From an uncultured Saccharospirillaceae bacterium (lineage in GTDB: Bacteria > Bacteroidota > Bacteroidia > Flavobacteriales_D > CAJJDF01), in assembly GCA_950054195.1 (NCBI GenBank), contig CATLPG010000026.1, forward strand, positions 1 to 40,714: a stretch of 40,714 nucleotides of DNA, given 5' to 3'. Made by a program: the position numbers and the translations under genes. Shown here piece by piece: positions 546 through 37,413 of this stretch; position 1 is the first letter of the stretch, and each line of letters begins with the position of its first letter. A model generated the notes under the pieces. The model saw only the letters and a program-made list of their open reading frames with translations. It was not told where the DNA came from and searched no databases.

Positions 546-1219
546 TGCAGATTTTAGAGTTAACTATTTACTCTGAAGATTTATTCTCTCAAAAATCATT
601 TTACAACGATCTTCTAGGTTTTGAGGTTTCTGAAGAAAGCGAGACTAGTTTTTCAATACAAGCTGGAGTCACAAAACTAATATTCATAGCATCAAATCAG
701 TTTACACCATATCATTTTGCAATTAATATACCCAATAATCAACTGTTTGATGCAATTAAATGGATGAAAAGCAAAGGTATCCCTTTGTTAAAAGATGGAA
801 ATAATGAAATCATTGATTTTGAATGGATTCATGCACGATCCATCTATTTTTATGATAAAGACAACAACATAGTTGAATTAATAGCAAGGAAAAAACTAAA
901 TAATCAAAGTTCAAGACCTTTCTCTATGAGTAATTTCTTAGAAGTTTCTGAGATAGGATTACCCAATCAAAATATTGAAAAAATATTTTCACTTTTAAAT
1001 CCTTTAGGCATAAAGCTATTTGCTGGTAATTTAGAACGTTTTGCTATGTTAGGTAATGAGCAAGGTATGTTTTTAGCTGTAAATACAACTATTAAAGATG
1101 ATTGGATTCCTACTGGTGACAAAATAGAACCTTCTGAATTTAGAGCACTTATAAAGCTGAAGAATCTTCACTTAATTGAATACAAAAACAATGAAATTGT
1201 TAGTTTAAAGTCAGTTTAA
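545..1219 (+). CDS. VOC (glyoxalase/bleomycin-resistance fold) family protein
   Basis: A 224-residue protein. Its N-terminal half (residues 1-113) follows the beta-alpha-beta-beta-beta pattern of the vicinal oxygen chelate fold. It has a strand-borne His near 57 (YHFAINI) and a Glu at 111 in NNIVELIAR after a DKDN turn, which are typical metal-ligand positions. The second half (about 132-197, EVSEIGLPNQNIEKIF and on) looks like a diverged second VOC module, giving the two-module length usual for a complete metal site. The family includes glyoxalases, dioxygenases and resistance proteins, and the substrate cannot be told here. It starts on the stop of the TPR gene and converges on pyrE with a 4-bp overlap of the 3' ends. 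Confidence 0.8.
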   Translation: MQILELTIYSEDLFSQKSFYNDLLGFEVSEESETSFSIQAGVTKLIFIASNQFTPYHFAINIPNNQLFDAIKWMKSKGIPLLKDGNNEIIDFEWIHARSIYFYDKDNNIVELIARKKLNNQSSRPFSMSNFLEVSEIGLPNQNIEKIFSLLNPLGIKLFAGNLERFAMLGNEQGMFLAVNTTIKDDWIPTGDKIEPSEFRALIKLKNLHLIEYKNNEIVSLKSV

Positions 1220-1845
1220 ACCTTTTGAGAGTGCCATTCAACTAGCATGTCGTAATCACTTTCTGTAATAAATTCCTTATCTCGAGCAACTGTAGCTAAA
1301 ATATTAAAATTGGACAGTGAGTAATAGCTACAATTAGATTTTTCAAAATTTTCTTTAGCAATAGGAAAGTTATAATCAAAAATGGCAATAACACCTTTAA
1401 CAATAGCTTGTCGATCCCTTACAGCATCTACAGCTTTTAAAGAACTTCCACCTGTAGAAATTAAATCTTCTATTAAAATTACATTCTGACCAGGATTTAC
1501 AATTCCTTCGATCATGTTTTGTAATCCATGCTCTTTTGCTTTTGATCGAACATATGCAAAAGGTAATTCCATTTCTTGAGCTACTAATGAGCCAAGAGGA
1601 ACTCCTCCTGTAGCAATACCTGCTACTACATCTGGTCGCCCGTAGGATTCACGAAGAATTTCAACAAGCTGTTGCCTAACAAAAGTTCTGATTTGTGGAT
1701 ATGATAAAATCACTCGATTATCACAATAGATAGGTGACTTAATACCAGAGGCCCAAGTGAAGGGTTCTTTAGGATTAAGCTTAACCGCTTTGATTTGTAA
1801 TAAAAATTCGGCTACCTTAGCAGCTGTTTGTTGATTTAAAATCAT
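1216..1845 (-). CDS. pyrE: orotate phosphoribosyltransferase
   Basis: This 209-residue enzyme converts orotate plus PRPP to OMP in de novo pyrimidine synthesis. The PRPP-binding signature VILIEDLISTGGSS lies at residues 122-135. The orotate-binding region FTWASGIKSPIYCDNR is at 29-44, and the flexible-loop segment RSKAKEHG is at 100-107. Length and motif order are standard for PyrE, so the assignment is firm. The start is the ATG at 1845, only 8 bp from the divergent NUDIX start codon. The promoter I see for this gene (1851-1879) lies inside the NUDIX coding sequence, so the transcript should have almost no 5' leader. Confidence 0.95.
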   Translation of the reverse strand: MILNQQTAAKVAEFLLQIKAVKLNPKEPFTWASGIKSPIYCDNRVILSYPQIRTFVRQQLVEILRESYGRPDVVAGIATGGVPLGSLVAQEMELPFAYVRSKAKEHGLQNMIEGIVNPGQNVILIEDLISTGGSSLKAVDAVRDRQAIVKGVIAIFDYNFPIAKENFEKSNCSYYSLSNFNILATVARDKEFITESDYDMLVEWHSQKV

Positions 1846-1850
1846 GGCTA

Positions 1851-1879
1851 CAAATGTATAAAGTTTTTATAGATGACAA
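1851..1879 (-). promoter_or_regulatory. pyrE promoter, Bacteroidota type, inside the NUDIX gene
   Basis: Reading the minus strand, a TTG (1879-1877) is followed after 18 bp by TACATTTG (1858-1851), an exact match to the Bacteroidota TTG-N17-23-TAnnTTTG form. The -7 element overlaps the NUDIX ATG (1854-1856). The expected transcription start is within a few bases of the pyrE ATG at 1845, so the mRNA should be leaderless or nearly so. Confidence 0.65.
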
Positions 1880-2462
1880 GATATTTTATGTATTAATTAA
1901 TGCATCAAAATCAGTTTTAAATACCAATATCAAATTATATCAGGCAAAAATGTTTGATCAAGTTTTTGATTTACTGAAAGCTAACACCCAACCAATAGCT
2001 TTTACTTTTTTTTCGAAAAAAGAAGCTCAGAAAGCTATTTCGAAAAAATTTACATGGGTAACAGCAGCAGGAGGTCTTGTAAAGAATGATCAAGATGAAC
2101 TCTTGTTAATTTTTAGAAATGGTCAATGGGATTTACCAAAGGGTAAACTCGAAAAGAATGAAAAAAATAAACACACTGCAATTAGAGAAGTAGAAGAAGA
2201 GTGTGGTATATCTAAACCGAAAATTATTAATGGTTTAAAAAAGACTTACCATACCTACAAGTTGGATGACAAGATTGTTTTTAAGGAAAGTGTTTGGTAT
2301 GAAATGTCGTATAAAGGAAAAGAAATACCTACACCCCAAAAAGAAGAAGGGATAGATTTAGCTATTTGGATGAATAAAGAGCAAATAGAGGATAAATACC
2401 CTTTTATGTATCCTGCAATAAAAGAACTTTTAGAAGAGTATTTAAAGAATGAAGAAAATTAA
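1854..2462 (+). CDS. NUDIX hydrolase
   Basis: A 202-residue protein with a perfect Nudix box (G-x5-E-x7-REVEEECGI) at residues 97-119, beginning GKLEKNE. This helix-loop-helix binds the divalent metal and positions the pyrophosphate of a nucleoside-diphosphate-linked substrate. The N-terminal 65 residues (from MYKVFIDDK) form an extra domain that is common in Bacteroidota members of this group, and the Nudix fold follows from TWVTAAGGLV. The exact substrate is not deducible. The gene is divergent from pyrE with 8 bp between start codons, an arrangement that suggests shared control. I see no perfect promoter for it within the pyrE side. Confidence 0.88.
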   Translation: MYKVFIDDKIFYVLINASKSVLNTNIKLYQAKMFDQVFDLLKANTQPIAFTFFSKKEAQKAISKKFTWVTAAGGLVKNDQDELLLIFRNGQWDLPKGKLEKNEKNKHTAIREVEEECGISKPKIINGLKKTYHTYKLDDKIVFKESVWYEMSYKGKEIPTPQKEEGIDLAIWMNKEQIEDKYPFMYPAIKELLEEYLKNEEN

Positions 2463-2485
2463 AGACATCTAAAATCTTTAATTTT

Positions 2486-2516
2486 TTGTTGGATATAAAA
2501 ATATCCTATATATTTG
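2486..2516 (+). promoter_or_regulatory. promoter of tRNA-His
   Basis: TATATTTG at 2509-2516 matches the Bacteroidota -7 element TAnnTTTG exactly. TTG triplets at 2486-2488 and 2489-2491 give 20- or 17-bp spacers. It lies about 30 bp before the mature 5' end of the tRNA. Confidence 0.65.
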
Positions 2517-2547
2517 CATCCGCTTCCAAAATAAAGGAGGCGAACAT

Positions 2548-2622
2548 GGTGATTGTAGCTCAGTTGGTTAGAGTATCGGTTTGTGGTTCCGAGGGTCGCG
2601 GGTTCGAATCCCGTCTTTCACC
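2548..2622 (+). tRNA. tRNA-His (anticodon GTG)
   Basis: The cloverleaf is readable: GCTC/GAGT D stem, anticodon loop TTGTGGT with GTG at 2583-2585, T arm GCGGG-TTCGAAT-CCCGT. The extra 5' G (2548) opposite discriminator C (2622) is the hallmark of tRNA-His. CCA is not encoded. Three T-T oppositions are visible: positions 5/68 and 6/67 in the acceptor stem (GTGATTG against CTTTCAC) and 31/39 in the anticodon stem. The identity is secure; structural quality is below average. Confidence 0.9.
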
Positions 2623-2629
2623 CATTAGT

Positions 2630-2659
2630 AAAAGCTCGGTATTTAGGTATCGAGCTTTT
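2630..2659 (+). terminator. intrinsic terminator after tRNA-His
   Basis: A 12-bp hairpin: arm AAAAGCTCGGTA (2630-2641), six-base loop, arm TATCGAGCTTTT (2648-2659), with one G-T wobble. The A-run on one side and T-run on the other make it potentially bidirectional. It ends only 20 bp before the next start codon. Confidence 0.8.
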
Positions 2660-2679
2660 CTGCTTTAAGCAACAAATGA

Positions 2680-4275
2680 ATGGCTCTCATGCTAAAAAGC
2701 TTTAAAAAATATTTTCACTTTTCATTTTTAGTTTATTTTTTTGGTTTATTCCTACTGTTTTCATGTGCTAAAAATCAATCAGTAGAGGTAGATTATTCCT
2801 TTGAGGCTGCAAAAAATGTCACAGTAGGTATTGAAGATTTTGATAAAGTAACATTCGAGTCTTTTCATGATTTAAACCTAGGTTTTTTTAGAGGAAATGT
2901 TTGGATAAAATTAGATATTAAAAATCCAAGCAAGCAAAGTAAATCCTGTATGTTTGTTAGTAACGACAGGTTCAATAGAAATTATACGTTTTACAAACTT
3001 GATACAACAAATAAGCGCTTAAAACTAGTTAACCATATAGATGATTTATCAACTCAAGATCATAGAACGTATAATAGTCCAAATCCTAATCTTAAAATTG
3101 ATTTAGCTCCAAATGAAGAATCAATTTATTTAATTACATCTTCTAGCGATGGAAGAACTAAGGATGCAACTCCTAGGATTACTTCCCTTGAAAATTATCA
3201 TAGTTTTGACTTAGGGAATGCAGTCTGGGATCTGATACTCTATACCATTATCATTATTTTACTCTTGGTTAATGTTTACTTATGGAGTGTTTACAAAAGA
3301 AAAATTTATTTGTATTATATTCTTTATATCCTATCTACCATATTTGTTTATTTAGGAATAGAAGGGTACTTGTTGTGCTTGAATATCAAACAAATTACAA
3401 TTGATCATATTGTGTTTGTATCGGTTAAATTGTGGGCATTTTCATTAATCATGTATACAGCTAAGTTTTTAGAAATTGATGTTGTAGCACCTAAGTATTA
3501 TAGGTTTGTAAAAACTATGCTAATAGTTGTTTTAGGTAGTATTTTGGTATACCAATTTGTATTCTTTTATACTTCTATTCAATATTTACATTATTTTGAA
3601 AATCTACTCACTGTACTTTGGTTATTAATTATAATTATAACCCTAGTTCTTTCAGCAAAAAAACGTTGGTTAGAGTTAAAATACTATTTAATTCCTCTTG
3701 CTTTTTTTATTGCATTTACTGTATTTGGAATAGTTAATGTTCACTTTCAGATTTTTACAGGAAACTCTTTTACTTATGTAAAAATAGGAGCAATATTTGA
3801 GTTTATTGGTTTTACCTATTTTATGACTTCATTAGTGAAAAGAAAAATTGAGCGAGGAGATAAGTTGATAGCAGAAGTAAATAAACAACGAGTAGAATTA
3901 GTTGAAAAATCAAAGAAGTTGGAAGAGCTTAACGTTTTACTGAAAGAAAAAACAAGCATAGAAAAAACGGATCTATTAAATATTTTTGCTTTGCTAGAAA
4001 ATTCCTTATCGAACGAAGAAGAATGGGATAATTTCAAAAATAAATTTCAGCATTTAAATCCTAACTTTTTAAATGAACTAGAGTCTCATCATCCCAACTT
4101 ATCTAAAAGCGAAATTCGTTTGTTGACTCTCATAAGGATTGGGTATTCTCAAAAAGAAATAGCAAATTTTCTAAATATTGCTCCTGGAAGTGTTAAAAAG
4201 GCAAGAACAAGAGTGCGTAAAAAATTAAACCTTTCGGAGGAAATAAACCTCAATGAATATCTAGGTGCTTTATAA
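2680..4275 (+). CDS. 7TMR-DISM receptor fused to a LuxR-type HTH (membrane-tethered regulator)
   Basis: A 531-residue protein. It has an N-terminal signal with a lipobox-like LFSC (Cys29), then a periplasmic beta-rich domain (about 35-170) containing FRGNVWIKLDIKN, characteristic of the 7TMR-DISM extracellular domain 2. Seven hydrophobic helices follow at about 183-204, 208-232, 243-262, 277-298, 309-326, 333-356 and 366-386, then a charged coiled coil (387-425). The C-terminal HTH (474-518, LSKSEIRLLTLIRIGYSQKEIANFLNI) is of the LuxR/GerE type common in Bacteroidota sensors. It probably senses a periplasmic or envelope signal and regulates transcription directly from the membrane; the ligand and target genes are unknown. 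It starts just after the tRNA-His terminator and precedes a kinase/regulator pair. Confidence 0.85.
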   Translation: MALMLKSFKKYFHFSFLVYFFGLFLLFSCAKNQSVEVDYSFEAAKNVTVGIEDFDKVTFESFHDLNLGFFRGNVWIKLDIKNPSKQSKSCMFVSNDRFNRNYTFYKLDTTNKRLKLVNHIDDLSTQDHRTYNSPNPNLKIDLAPNEESIYLITSSSDGRTKDATPRITSLENYHSFDLGNAVWDLILYTIIIILLLVNVYLWSVYKRKIYLYYILYILSTIFVYLGIEGYLLCLNIKQITIDHIVFVSVKLWAFSLIMYTAKFLEIDVVAPKYYRFVKTMLIVVLGSILVYQFVFFYTSIQYLHYFENLLTVLWLLIIIITLVLSAKKRWLELKYYLIPLAFFIAFTVFGIVNVHFQIFTGNSFTYVKIGAIFEFIGFTYFMTSLVKRKIERGDKLIAEVNKQRVELVEKSKKLEELNVLLKEKTSIEKTDLLNIFALLENSLSNEEEWDNFKNKFQHLNPNFLNELESHHPNLSKSEIRLLTLIRIGYSQKEIANFLNIAPGSVKKARTRVRKKLNLSEEINLNEYLGAL

Positions 4276-6833: not shown

Positions 6834-8522
6834 ATGAAAAAAATACTACTTATACAGACGCTAATTTTTGCTGCTTTTTTTAGTGCAAGTGCTCAAAATT
6901 TTGAATGGGCAAAAGGAATTCAAGGAGATGTATATAACTCTGGAGAGTCAATAACCTATGATGCTGCAGGTAACTCATATATTGCAGGTCGCTTTTTTGA
7001 TACCGTTGATTTTGACCCAGGAGCAGGAGTTTTTAACTTAACTTCTGGTGTGGGATCTGATATTTACATCCTAAAATTAGATGCTTTAGGTGATTTTGTG
7101 TGGGCTAAAAGTATTGGTGGAACATCAGAAGATAGACCAAGTTCAATACATGTTGATGAAGGAGGTGATATTTATGTCACAGGCTTCTTCTCTGATACGG
7201 TAGATTTTGATCCAGGAGTAGGAGTAAACAACTTAATTTCTGAAGGATTCAAAGATATTTTTGTATTAAAATTAAATTCATTTGGAGACTTTGTTTGGGC
7301 AAAACAATTTGGAGGCACAGCTAATGATGAAGGATATGACATTACAGTAGATGTAAACAGATTTGTGTACGTTACAGGAACCTTTTCTGGCACTGCAGAT
7401 TTTGATCCAGGAGCAGGTACAAGTAACTTAATTTCAGAAGGAGCATTTGATGGTTTTGTATTAAAATTACTTCCTTCTGGAGATTTAAATTGGGTAAAAA
7501 AAGTAGGAGGACCAAACGATGATGACGCATCTTTTTCTATAGATTTAGATTCTTCTAATAATGTATATACTACTGGTTACTTCAGGGATTCAGTCGATTT
7601 TGATCCAGGAGCGGGTACAGCTAATGTAACCTCAAATGGAATGCGTGATGGATACATCTTGAAGTTTGATGGAGCAGGTAATTATGTATGGGTTAAAACT
7701 ATAGGTAGTTTTGCTCAAGATTACGTTAGAGATATTACTATCGATGATGCTACTGGAGATGTATTTGTAACAGGAGAATTCCAATTTACTGTGGATTTTG
7801 ATCCTGGTACTGATACAGCTAATTTAGTTTCCAATGGAATATTAGATGCTTATGTATTGAAGTTAAACGCTAACGGGGATTATGTATGGGCAAAAAGTTA
7901 TGGAGGAGATAGTTTTGAAAACTCAACGTCAATTAGTCTAGATGGGGACGGAAACATTTACACCACAGGAAATTTTTATGATACAGCTGATTTTGATCCA
8001 GGAATTAATACCGTTAACCTTATAGCTACTGGATCTAGCGCTGATATTTTTATCTTAAAGTTATCTCCATTAGGTGATTATGTTTGGGCAGGAAGTATAG
8101 GTGAAACTGGAGATGATCTAGGAAACTGTATTACGGTAGATGATGCATGTAATATATATACGACAGGATATTATTTAGATACCGCAGATTTTGATACTGG
8201 GACAGGAACTAATACTTTATTTAATAATGGGGGAGGTCAATCATATGCTTTAAAGCTAAGCTGCCAATTAACTACTGGTTTGGATGATGATGTTTTTAGT
8301 AATTATTCATTGTCAATTTACCCTAACCCTACAAGTTCTCAACTAACAATTAATTATGAAGGAGAAATTAGTGAAATCAATATTATAGATATTAAAGGAA
8401 AAACAATCAAACAATTTTCCTCTGCTAAAACGATAGAAGTAGCTGATTTAGTTGCAGGGGTATACTTTCTACAAATTAAATCAGATAGAAATGTAATCAA
8501 TAGAAAATTTATTAAGGAATAA
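6834..8522 (+). CDS. SBBP-type beta-propeller repeat protein with T9SS sorting domain
   Basis: A 562-residue secreted protein. The signal peptide is residues 1-20 (cleavage near SASA-QN). Residues 21-475 hold seven repeats of about 65 residues, each with a core like DTVDFDPGAGxxNL at about 59, 124, 189, 255, 321, 387 and 452, followed by ILKLDxxGDFVWAKSIGG. This is the SBBP-type propeller blade pattern; the Asp-rich DFDPG turns could bind calcium. The last 75 residues start with SIYPNPTSSQL and end in KFIKE, a type A C-terminal sorting domain that directs export and surface attachment by the type IX system. It is probably a surface or extracellular binding protein. It is cotranscribed with its neighbours (gaps of 19 and 11 bp). 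Confidence 0.88.
   Translation: MKKILLIQTLIFAAFFSASAQNFEWAKGIQGDVYNSGESITYDAAGNSYIAGRFFDTVDFDPGAGVFNLTSGVGSDIYILKLDALGDFVWAKSIGGTSEDRPSSIHVDEGGDIYVTGFFSDTVDFDPGVGVNNLISEGFKDIFVLKLNSFGDFVWAKQFGGTANDEGYDITVDVNRFVYVTGTFSGTADFDPGAGTSNLISEGAFDGFVLKLLPSGDLNWVKKVGGPNDDDASFSIDLDSSNNVYTTGYFRDSVDFDPGAGTANVTSNGMRDGYILKFDGAGNYVWVKTIGSFAQDYVRDITIDDATGDVFVTGEFQFTVDFDPGTDTANLVSNGILDAYVLKLNANGDYVWAKSYGGDSFENSTSISLDGDGNIYTTGNFYDTADFDPGINTVNLIATGSSADIFILKLSPLGDYVWAGSIGETGDDLGNCITVDDACNIYTTGYYLDTADFDTGTGTNTLFNNGGGQSYALKLSCQLTTGLDDDVFSNYSLSIYPNPTSSQLTINYEGEISEINIIDIKGKTIKQFSSAKTIEVADLVAGVYFLQIKSDRNVINRKFIKE
6990..8258 (+). repeat. seven tandem coding repeats, about 196 bp period
   Basis: In-frame tandem repeats encoding the DFDPG blades. 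The nucleotide sequence around GATTTTGATCCAGGAGCAGG recurs with only small changes, so slippage or recombination could change the number of blades between strains. Confidence 0.8.
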
Positions 8523-36600: not shown

Positions 36601-36622
36601 CACTCAATAAACGTAAGCTTTA

Positions 36623-36630
36623 TACATTTG
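36623..36630 (+). promoter_or_regulatory. -7 element for the DUF547 gene
   Basis: TACATTTG matches TAnnTTTG exactly, 34 bp before the ATG at 36664. It shares its last bases with a TTG codon that is not the start. No consensus TTG lies upstream; AGTTAAGTT repeats do. Confidence 0.45.
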
Positions 36631-36663: not shown

Positions 36664-37413
36664 ATGAAAAAAATACTAGGAATTTTAAGTTTAGCATTAG
36701 CTTTTGCTTGCTCAACTACTACATCACCAGCTAAAGCAGGTACACCAATTACGCATGAAAGTTGGACAGCTTTATTACAAAAGCATGTTTCTTCAAGTGG
36801 ATGCGTAAATTACGAAGGATTTAAAAAAGACAAAGCCAAATTATATGCATATTGTGAGTTATTGAGTAAACATCATCCTGCAGATAGTTGGTCAAAAGAT
36901 CAAAAATATGCTTATTGGATTAATGCTTACAATGCTTATACAATCAAATTAATAGTAGATAATTATCCAGTTAAGAGTATTAAAGATTTAGGAGGCACTT
37001 TAACAAACAAAGTATGGGATAAAAAATATATAGAATTAGGAGGAAAAACCTATAGTTTAACAGATATTGAGCATAATATTCTAAGACCAAAATTTAAAGA
37101 TGCAAGAGTACACGCAGCGATAAACTGTGCTTCAATTTCTTGCCCAAACTTATATAATAAAGCGTTTGAGGCAAAAGGCTTAGATGCTACACTGGATAAA
37201 GTATTTAAAAAGTGGGTGAACGATAAATCTAAAAATACTATTACGGCTGATAAATTAGAGATTTCAAAGATTTTTAAATGGTTTGAAGAAGACTTCACAA
37301 GAAATGGACAAACTGTTATTGGTTACATTAACAAGTACAGTGATGTAAAAGTAAAAGCTGATGCTTCTATTTCATATAAATCATATAACTGGAATTTAAA
37401 TAAATGTAGATAA
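36664..37413 (+). CDS. DUF547 family lipoprotein
   Basis: A 249-residue protein from the ATG at 36664; the frame extends upstream only through a TTG that lies in the promoter. The signal/lipobox is MKKILGILSLALAFAC (Cys at 16). The DUF547 body has GCVNYEGFKKDKAKLYAYCE, the marker WINAYNAYTIKLIVDNYP, SLTDIEHNILRPKFKDARVH, and CASISCPNL near the middle. The conserved His and Cys of this family have led to suggestions of a transglutaminase-like or metal-binding fold, but the function is not established. Anchored in the envelope. A strong terminator follows. Confidence 0.87.
   Translation: MKKILGILSLALAFACSTTTSPAKAGTPITHESWTALLQKHVSSSGCVNYEGFKKDKAKLYAYCELLSKHHPADSWSKDQKYAYWINAYNAYTIKLIVDNYPVKSIKDLGGTLTNKVWDKKYIELGGKTYSLTDIEHNILRPKFKDARVHAAINCASISCPNLYNKAFEAKGLDATLDKVFKKWVNDKSKNTITADKLEISKIFKWFEEDFTRNGQTVIGYINKYSDVKVKADASISYKSYNWNLNKCR

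Follow-up and report, generated by a model that had tools for sequence, protein, structure and literature searches.

The junction between pyrE and a divergent NUDIX hydrolase gene, whose start codons are 8 bp apart in the 40,714-nucleotide stretch of DNA analysed here (the window, from contig 26 in a genome of 3.27 Mb and 118 contigs), holds a strongly conserved promoter-like element on the minus strand at 1851-1866. From comparison of sequences we propose, with a probability of roughly 0.75, that this is the housekeeping-sigma promoter of pyrE, from which transcription would start at the pyrE ATG or no more than one base away from it, giving a predicted leaderless mRNA. Comparison of related loci establishes the box, its spacing and a synonymous constraint on either side, and shows that the box persists where NUDIX codons have changed and is lost where the divergent gene has moved away. 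What we infer is where transcription starts, that pyrE is translated leaderless, that NUDIX has a facing promoter and that the two promoters exclude each other. A preliminary description of this DNA had seen a promoter with a leaderless pyrE transcript at this place, and that reading survives as the best explanation of the element, shorn of the conserved -33 element that had been part of it. Two coding sequences appear to be constrained, each by the promoter of the opposite gene.

The pyrE-NUDIX junction in the window

On the minus strand, pyrE (1216-1845) encodes a 209 aa orotate phosphoribosyltransferase (TIGR00336, 144.3 bits against a cut-off of 106.8; PF00156), and the NUDIX hydrolase gene, of 202 aa (1854-2462, plus strand; PF00293, 58.1 bits), diverges from it; the top sequence match of the NUDIX protein among solved chains is an Ap4A hydrolase (E 8.6e-11). 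The two start codons, the pyrE ATG at 1843-1845 (minus) and the NUDIX ATG beginning at 1854 (plus), are separated by 8 bp (1846-1853), just as first described. At its other end pyrE is convergent with a plus-strand glyoxalase-like gene (545-1219), with a 4-base overlap between this gene and the pyrE end (1216-1219).

In minus-strand order the junction reads TTG (1879-1877)-N18-TACATTTG (1858-1851)-TAGCC-ATG (1845). The predicted -7 box TACATTTG lies 5 nt before the pyrE ATG, with a sequence and spacing that are kept in relatives, and it takes in three intergenic bases (1851-1853) and the NUDIX ATG and reaches two bases into NUDIX codon 2; it does cover the NUDIX start codon, as the preliminary description had it, without lying wholly within NUDIX codons, as had also been claimed. 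The box agrees with the Bacteroidota housekeeping-sigma consensus, given as TTTG / TAnnTTTG and revised to TAHHTTTG in the available part of PMC6847099, having no G at either free position. The same part of that paper gives 4-5 nt between the -7 box and the start site in F. johnsoniae, and by this rule the first transcribed base of pyrE would be the A of its ATG; the predicted start is 1845 or 1846 (minus), with a leader of 0-1 nt. The conserved promoter core AAACTTTATACATTTG (1851-1866, minus; on the plus strand CAA, NUDIX codons 1-4 and the first base of codon 5) is defined by column counts, with synonymous constraint at NUDIX codons 3 and 4. The TTG at 1877-1879 (minus), which had been taken to complete a textbook TTG-N18-box arrangement, is indeed present in the window, but it recurs at N18 in just 9 of 87 box-bearing loci of the window's order, and we rejected it as a conserved element: it is probably there by chance. 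As the -33 element is in general much less evident (PMC6847099, available part), it does not decide whether a sequence belongs among these promoters.

By itself the box proves nothing, since TAnnTTTG is no commoner than chance in this AT-rich DNA: it is seen 63 times in the window against 67.4 expected from shuffles, and its density is 0.64 per kb per strand in 441 kb. What raises it above chance is its rare spacing together with its conservation in relatives. It is the only minus-strand TAnnTTTG within 780-4034 of the window. Among 305 ATG-ORFs of at least 120 aa (from 400 kb of the own genome plus the window, called mechanically, so that some starts will be wrong), the box stands 3-6 nt before the first ATG in four, pyrE being among those four, and the fullest bin for the box-to-ATG distance is 19-22 nt, with 15 ORFs.

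The promoter core was also considered as a regulon motif, and rejected: in the own genome the 16-mer AAACTTTRTACATTTG is matched exactly at one site, and with as many as 3 mismatches allowed there are 167 sites, whereas a reversed control gives 226. At window 36615-36630, AAGCTTTATACATTTG differs from the pyrE core by one mismatch; an in-frame ATG follows after 33 nt, at 36664, and should this be the start codon, the arrangement, judged by its sequence, resembles that of an ordinary promoter with a leader. Downstream of the NUDIX gene, TATATTTG at 2509-2516 lies 32 nt before a tRNA-His gene (2549-2623) and is probably its promoter; for an RNA family in the leader, Rfam at the gathering threshold gives only a tRNA across the window. 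In the own-genome sample just one further head-to-head pair is separated by no more than 30 bp, that of L168 (6844-7674, minus, and 7686-8231, plus; gap 11 bp), where a TACCTTTG for the plus-strand gene sits within the neighbour's predicted coding sequence.

Conservation of the box and of the codons around it

Within the window's order, a NUDIX match was found in 359 of 399 genomes. Our order set began as 90 loci from the best NUDIX matches (30 returned and 60 fetched, spread over genera by hand); being taken from a best-match list they are selected for similarity, and as relatives sharing ancestry they are not independent. One of them (L039), in which the contig ends before pyrE, was dropped, leaving 89 from 41 genera and 9 families. 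pyrE adjoins NUDIX in all 89, and an ATG stands at the expected pyrE place in all 89, a place at which the search script looks for an ATG. TAnnTTTG lies 3-6 nt before the pyrE ATG in 83/89 loci (41 genera) and within 20 nt of it in 87/89. The spacing is 4 nt in 43 loci, 5 in 34, 6 in five, 9 in four family relatives (L011-L014) and 3 in one, which makes 77 of the 87 box-bearing loci exactly 4-5 nt, the window having 5. Two exceptions without TAnnTTTG, L030 (TACATTTA) and L083 (TATTTTCG), were both counted as misses. A strict pattern with an AAACTTY core is found in 251 of 399 genomes and 54 of 70 genera, a few among the matches listed falling elsewhere; in some f10 loci the box is kept and the AAACTTT block is lost. 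A further order sample of 30 genomes, 23 of them without the strict match, gave no pyrE match in five; in the other 25 pyrE is always divergent from NUDIX, with TAnnTTTG 4-6 nt before its ATG in 19 and, as read by eye, TAnnTTCG at 4 nt in the remaining six.

pyrE was found in 288 of 296 genomes of the class, and 40 pyrE loci were fetched from outside the window's order. NUDIX is on the opposite strand to pyrE in 40/40 of these, and TAnnTTTG lies no more than 6 nt from the pyrE ATG in 29; among the 11 misses, three (L134, L136, L141) have no TAnnTTTG within 60 nt and eight have it at 7-38 nt. Ten class loci have a wide gap, the NUDIX frame being closed before pyrE and the first NUDIX ATG being 38-99 nt away, so that the box falls outside the NUDIX coding sequence (L130, with an unclear NUDIX start, was excluded from the ten). 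The box is still 4-6 nt before pyrE in six of them, so tight packing alone does not account for the spacing.

A natural test came from a scan of 80 named loci, partly from the same genomes as the order set. pyrE was present in 40, all divergent from NUDIX, with the box at 4-6 nt in 35, none in four and at 13 nt in one whose start is doubtful. From the 40 loci without a pyrE match we read 35, leaving out L208, L211, L215, L218 and L254 as unreadable at the start; these 35, mostly Chryseobacterium and Epilithonimonas (including L197 and L201), are related genomes rather than 35 independent cases, and none has a pyrE match within 1.5 kb of NUDIX, the span that was fetched. In 33/35 the place of pyrE is taken by a CoxG-like gene (assigned to PF06240 in both cases tested), divergent and within 60 nt of NUDIX, and the minus-strand TAnnTTTG is kept in all 33. 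It is lost in L225 and L226, where 893 and 389 nt separate the CoxG-like gene from NUDIX, with a plus-strand gene lying between the two in L225. Both of these loci keep the codons TAT AAA GTT TTT, so that loss of the box is not immediately followed by loss of the codon block; part of the NUDIX codon conservation may have another cause or be inherited, as the f10 loci, L225 and L226 indicate.

The box also outlasts changes in the NUDIX start. Sixteen order loci have no ATG at the box, and there the NUDIX frame runs on to an ATG that overlaps the pyrE ATG (CATG); in 16/16 the box is TAnnTTTG at exactly 4 nt. Conservation beyond codon needs was the check that the preliminary description had itself set, and the 83 order loci and these 16 bear it out. 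Codon use points the same way. Across 88 loci (L083 left out), the NUDIX Val4 codon is GTT in 80, GTA in eight and GTC or GTG in none, where the gene-specific expectation for GTT and GTA together is 55; codon 3 is AAA in 85, GAA in three and AAG in none, where AAA is expected in 58/84. Both rules, GTW at Val4 and AAA at Lys3, hold in 40/40 genera, and Tyr2 and Phe5 use both of their codons, as the background does. The base three before the NUDIX ATG is C in the box; own-genome ORFs have 41% A and 16% C there, and the partner of that C, the G of TTTG, is present in 87/88 loci. The base would be C because the box needs it.

A candidate facing box on the NUDIX side

On the plus strand, a candidate NUDIX -7 box, TACCTTAG at 1813-1820, lies within pyrE codons 9-11, with one mismatch to TAnnTTTG; the 1.85 kb available upstream of NUDIX in the window holds no perfect plus-strand TAnnTTTG. 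Five family relatives (L010-L014) have a perfect TACCTTTG at this NUDIX-side place, and at least five of the six fixed letters are matched in 72/89 order loci. pyrE codons 9-11 are strongly biased towards YTA-AAR-GTA, which gives TACYTTTA/G on the NUDIX strand: in the order loci Val is GTA in 70/75 and Leu is TTA or CTA in 66/68, where the rest of pyrE has GTA at.30 and TTA plus CTA at.42. A general early-codon bias as the cause of this conservation is unsupported, codons 8-13 being unbiased against later ones in the 305 own-genome ORFs. In the 40 class loci, which lie outside the order, we read the codon bias on the NUDIX side as weak.

In ten g10 loci the NUDIX-side box at codons 9-11 is matched in only 2-4 of the six letters; these have a perfect TATCTTTG at pyrE nt 12-19, and the NUDIX start has moved too. 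As the ten belong to one genus, this is perhaps one event. TAnnTTTG at pyrE nt 12-19 occurs in five other loci, four of which (L011-L014) have it beside the first box. CATG-overlapping starts and a perfect NUDIX-strand box at pyrE nt 12-19 are seen together in L019-L021, L028, L040, L045, L047, L048, L055 and L056.

The 4-5 nt rule would place the NUDIX transcription start near 1825, with a leader of about 28 nt, close to the median leader of 24 nt given for F. psychrophilum in the available part of PMC9723704. The geometry of the two boxes and the same rule would make the 5′ ends of the pyrE and NUDIX mRNAs overlap at 1825-1845. That NUDIX is transcribed from its own facing promoter in pyrE codons 9-11 we regard as an even proposition. 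The pyrE codon 9-11 bias, facing promoters that each lie inside the other gene, and mRNA 5′ ends overlapping by about 20 nt would be what is new here.

Mechanism, alternatives and known systems

We propose that housekeeping-sigma RNA polymerase would recognise TACATTTG over the first NUDIX codon and start transcription at the pyrE ATG, give or take one base, pyrE then being translated from a leaderless mRNA, and that NUDIX would most likely be read from the weaker facing box in pyrE codons 9-11. With facing boxes in each other's gene, the pyrE and NUDIX promoters would exclude each other, and the first 20 or so nt of their mRNAs would be complementary. The preliminary description had suggested that polymerase on the pyrE promoter would block NUDIX initiation and so couple the two genes; such coupling would gain a concrete form from the candidate facing box. 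At its fullest, the proposal is of a switch: two divergent housekeeping genes, each with the promoter of the other in its first codons, the promoters facing, the polymerases mutually exclusive and the NUDIX leader complementary to the leaderless pyrE start, its AUG included. We put this forward tentatively, as a possibility with the odds somewhat against it. If true, the switch would be held by double coding across an order, one of the two genes being read at a time, and the antisense NUDIX leader could cover the only ribosome entry point of pyrE.

Other explanations of the block can be weighed against this. Were it conserved only for the NUDIX N-terminus (MYKVF) and translation start, with pyrE transcribed from elsewhere, then the near-invariance of the YKVF codons, and their persistence in L225 and L226 without the box, would fit well; however, the rare C three before the NUDIX ATG is non-coding and yet its partner G is almost always kept, the box is retained in all 16 loci with NUDIX starting elsewhere, the constraint falls on only some of the degenerate codons, the spacing holds in six of the ten wide-gap class loci, where the box is clear of the NUDIX gene, and the box disappears where the divergent gene has moved away. 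We consider this explanation improbable. Just as improbable, in our view, is that pyrE has another main start, for instance a sigma-54 one, with the box as a secondary promoter. Table 2A of PMC9723704, in the part available, does place the F. psychrophilum pyrE start under SM4, a sigma-54-type -24/-12 motif, and this published assignment counts against our best explanation; but TGG-N8/9-TTGC within 250 nt upstream of pyrE is found in just 2/89 order and 2/40 class loci, a set that has the F. psychrophilum junction outside it, and is absent in the window.

Two further possibilities, each less probable than our preferred reading, sit closer to it. The promoter may be right and the mRNA have a leader of a few nt, or mixed starts, which overlaps with the 0-1 nt that we allow: the spacings of 5 in the window, 6 in five loci and 9 in L011-L014 would suit this, against which the large majority of loci at exactly 4-5 nt would place the start at or next to the ATG. 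NUDIX, for its part, could be without its own facing promoter and be served by plus-strand read-through across pyrE, which is compatible with the pyrE promoter and in keeping both with the want of a perfect plus-strand box in the 1.85 kb and with the plus-strand gene at 545-1219 that runs into the pyrE end; the codon bias at pyrE codons 9-11 and the perfect TACCTTTG in 5/5 family relatives argue against it. Also to be counted against a leaderless pyrE promoter with a facing NUDIX box are the minority standing of leaderless mRNAs in published maps, the 11 misses in the class, the unconserved -33 and the mismatch in the window's NUDIX box. E. coli pyrimidine promoters show UTP-dependent slippage at the start; slippage of this kind at the pyrE start (AUGAUUUU) was left as weak, TTTT occurring in the first 9 nt of 41/89 loci only.

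Among the matches listed, no title points to an earlier account of this junction or of a leaderless pyrE in such bacteria. With Bacteroidota housekeeping-sigma promoters the pyrE junction has in common the -7 box and an AT-rich upstream block; in contrast to them, its box overlies the start codon of the neighbour and its -33 is not conserved. The F. psychrophilum pyrE start under SM4 is mapped and sigma-54-assigned (PMC9723704, available part), whereas such a motif is uncommon in the loci here. Bidirectional promoters of E. coli, as far as the available part of PMC12825309 describes them, likewise have opposed starts about 20 bp apart and a possible competition for RNA polymerase, although for the five tested there basal transcription was too low for it. 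In those promoters one -10 is shared, with the starts inside it or flanking it, whereas here two separate facing boxes would give overlapping transcripts: no shared symmetric -10 of that type is found, the candidate boxes at 1813-1820 (plus) and 1851-1858 (minus) being separate and pointing at each other.

In the available parts of the published maps, 87% of leaders are longer than 10 nt (PMC6847099), leaderless mRNAs make up 5.5% in F. psychrophilum (PMC9723704) and 3.7% of B. thetaiotaomicron mRNAs have a leader of less than 10 nt (PMC7366714). A 5′ end at the AUG, as in these leaderless mRNAs, is likewise predicted for pyrE; the difference is that here the prediction concerns a single housekeeping gene and extends to most order loci and to 29/40 class loci. 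Bacteroidota are, to our knowledge, naturally without Shine-Dalgarno sites, and leaderless mRNAs are a small minority in these maps. The junction matters as a natural case: pyrE, predicted to be leaderless in most loci, would let the start of the ribosome at a 5′-terminal AUG be followed in one and the same gene.
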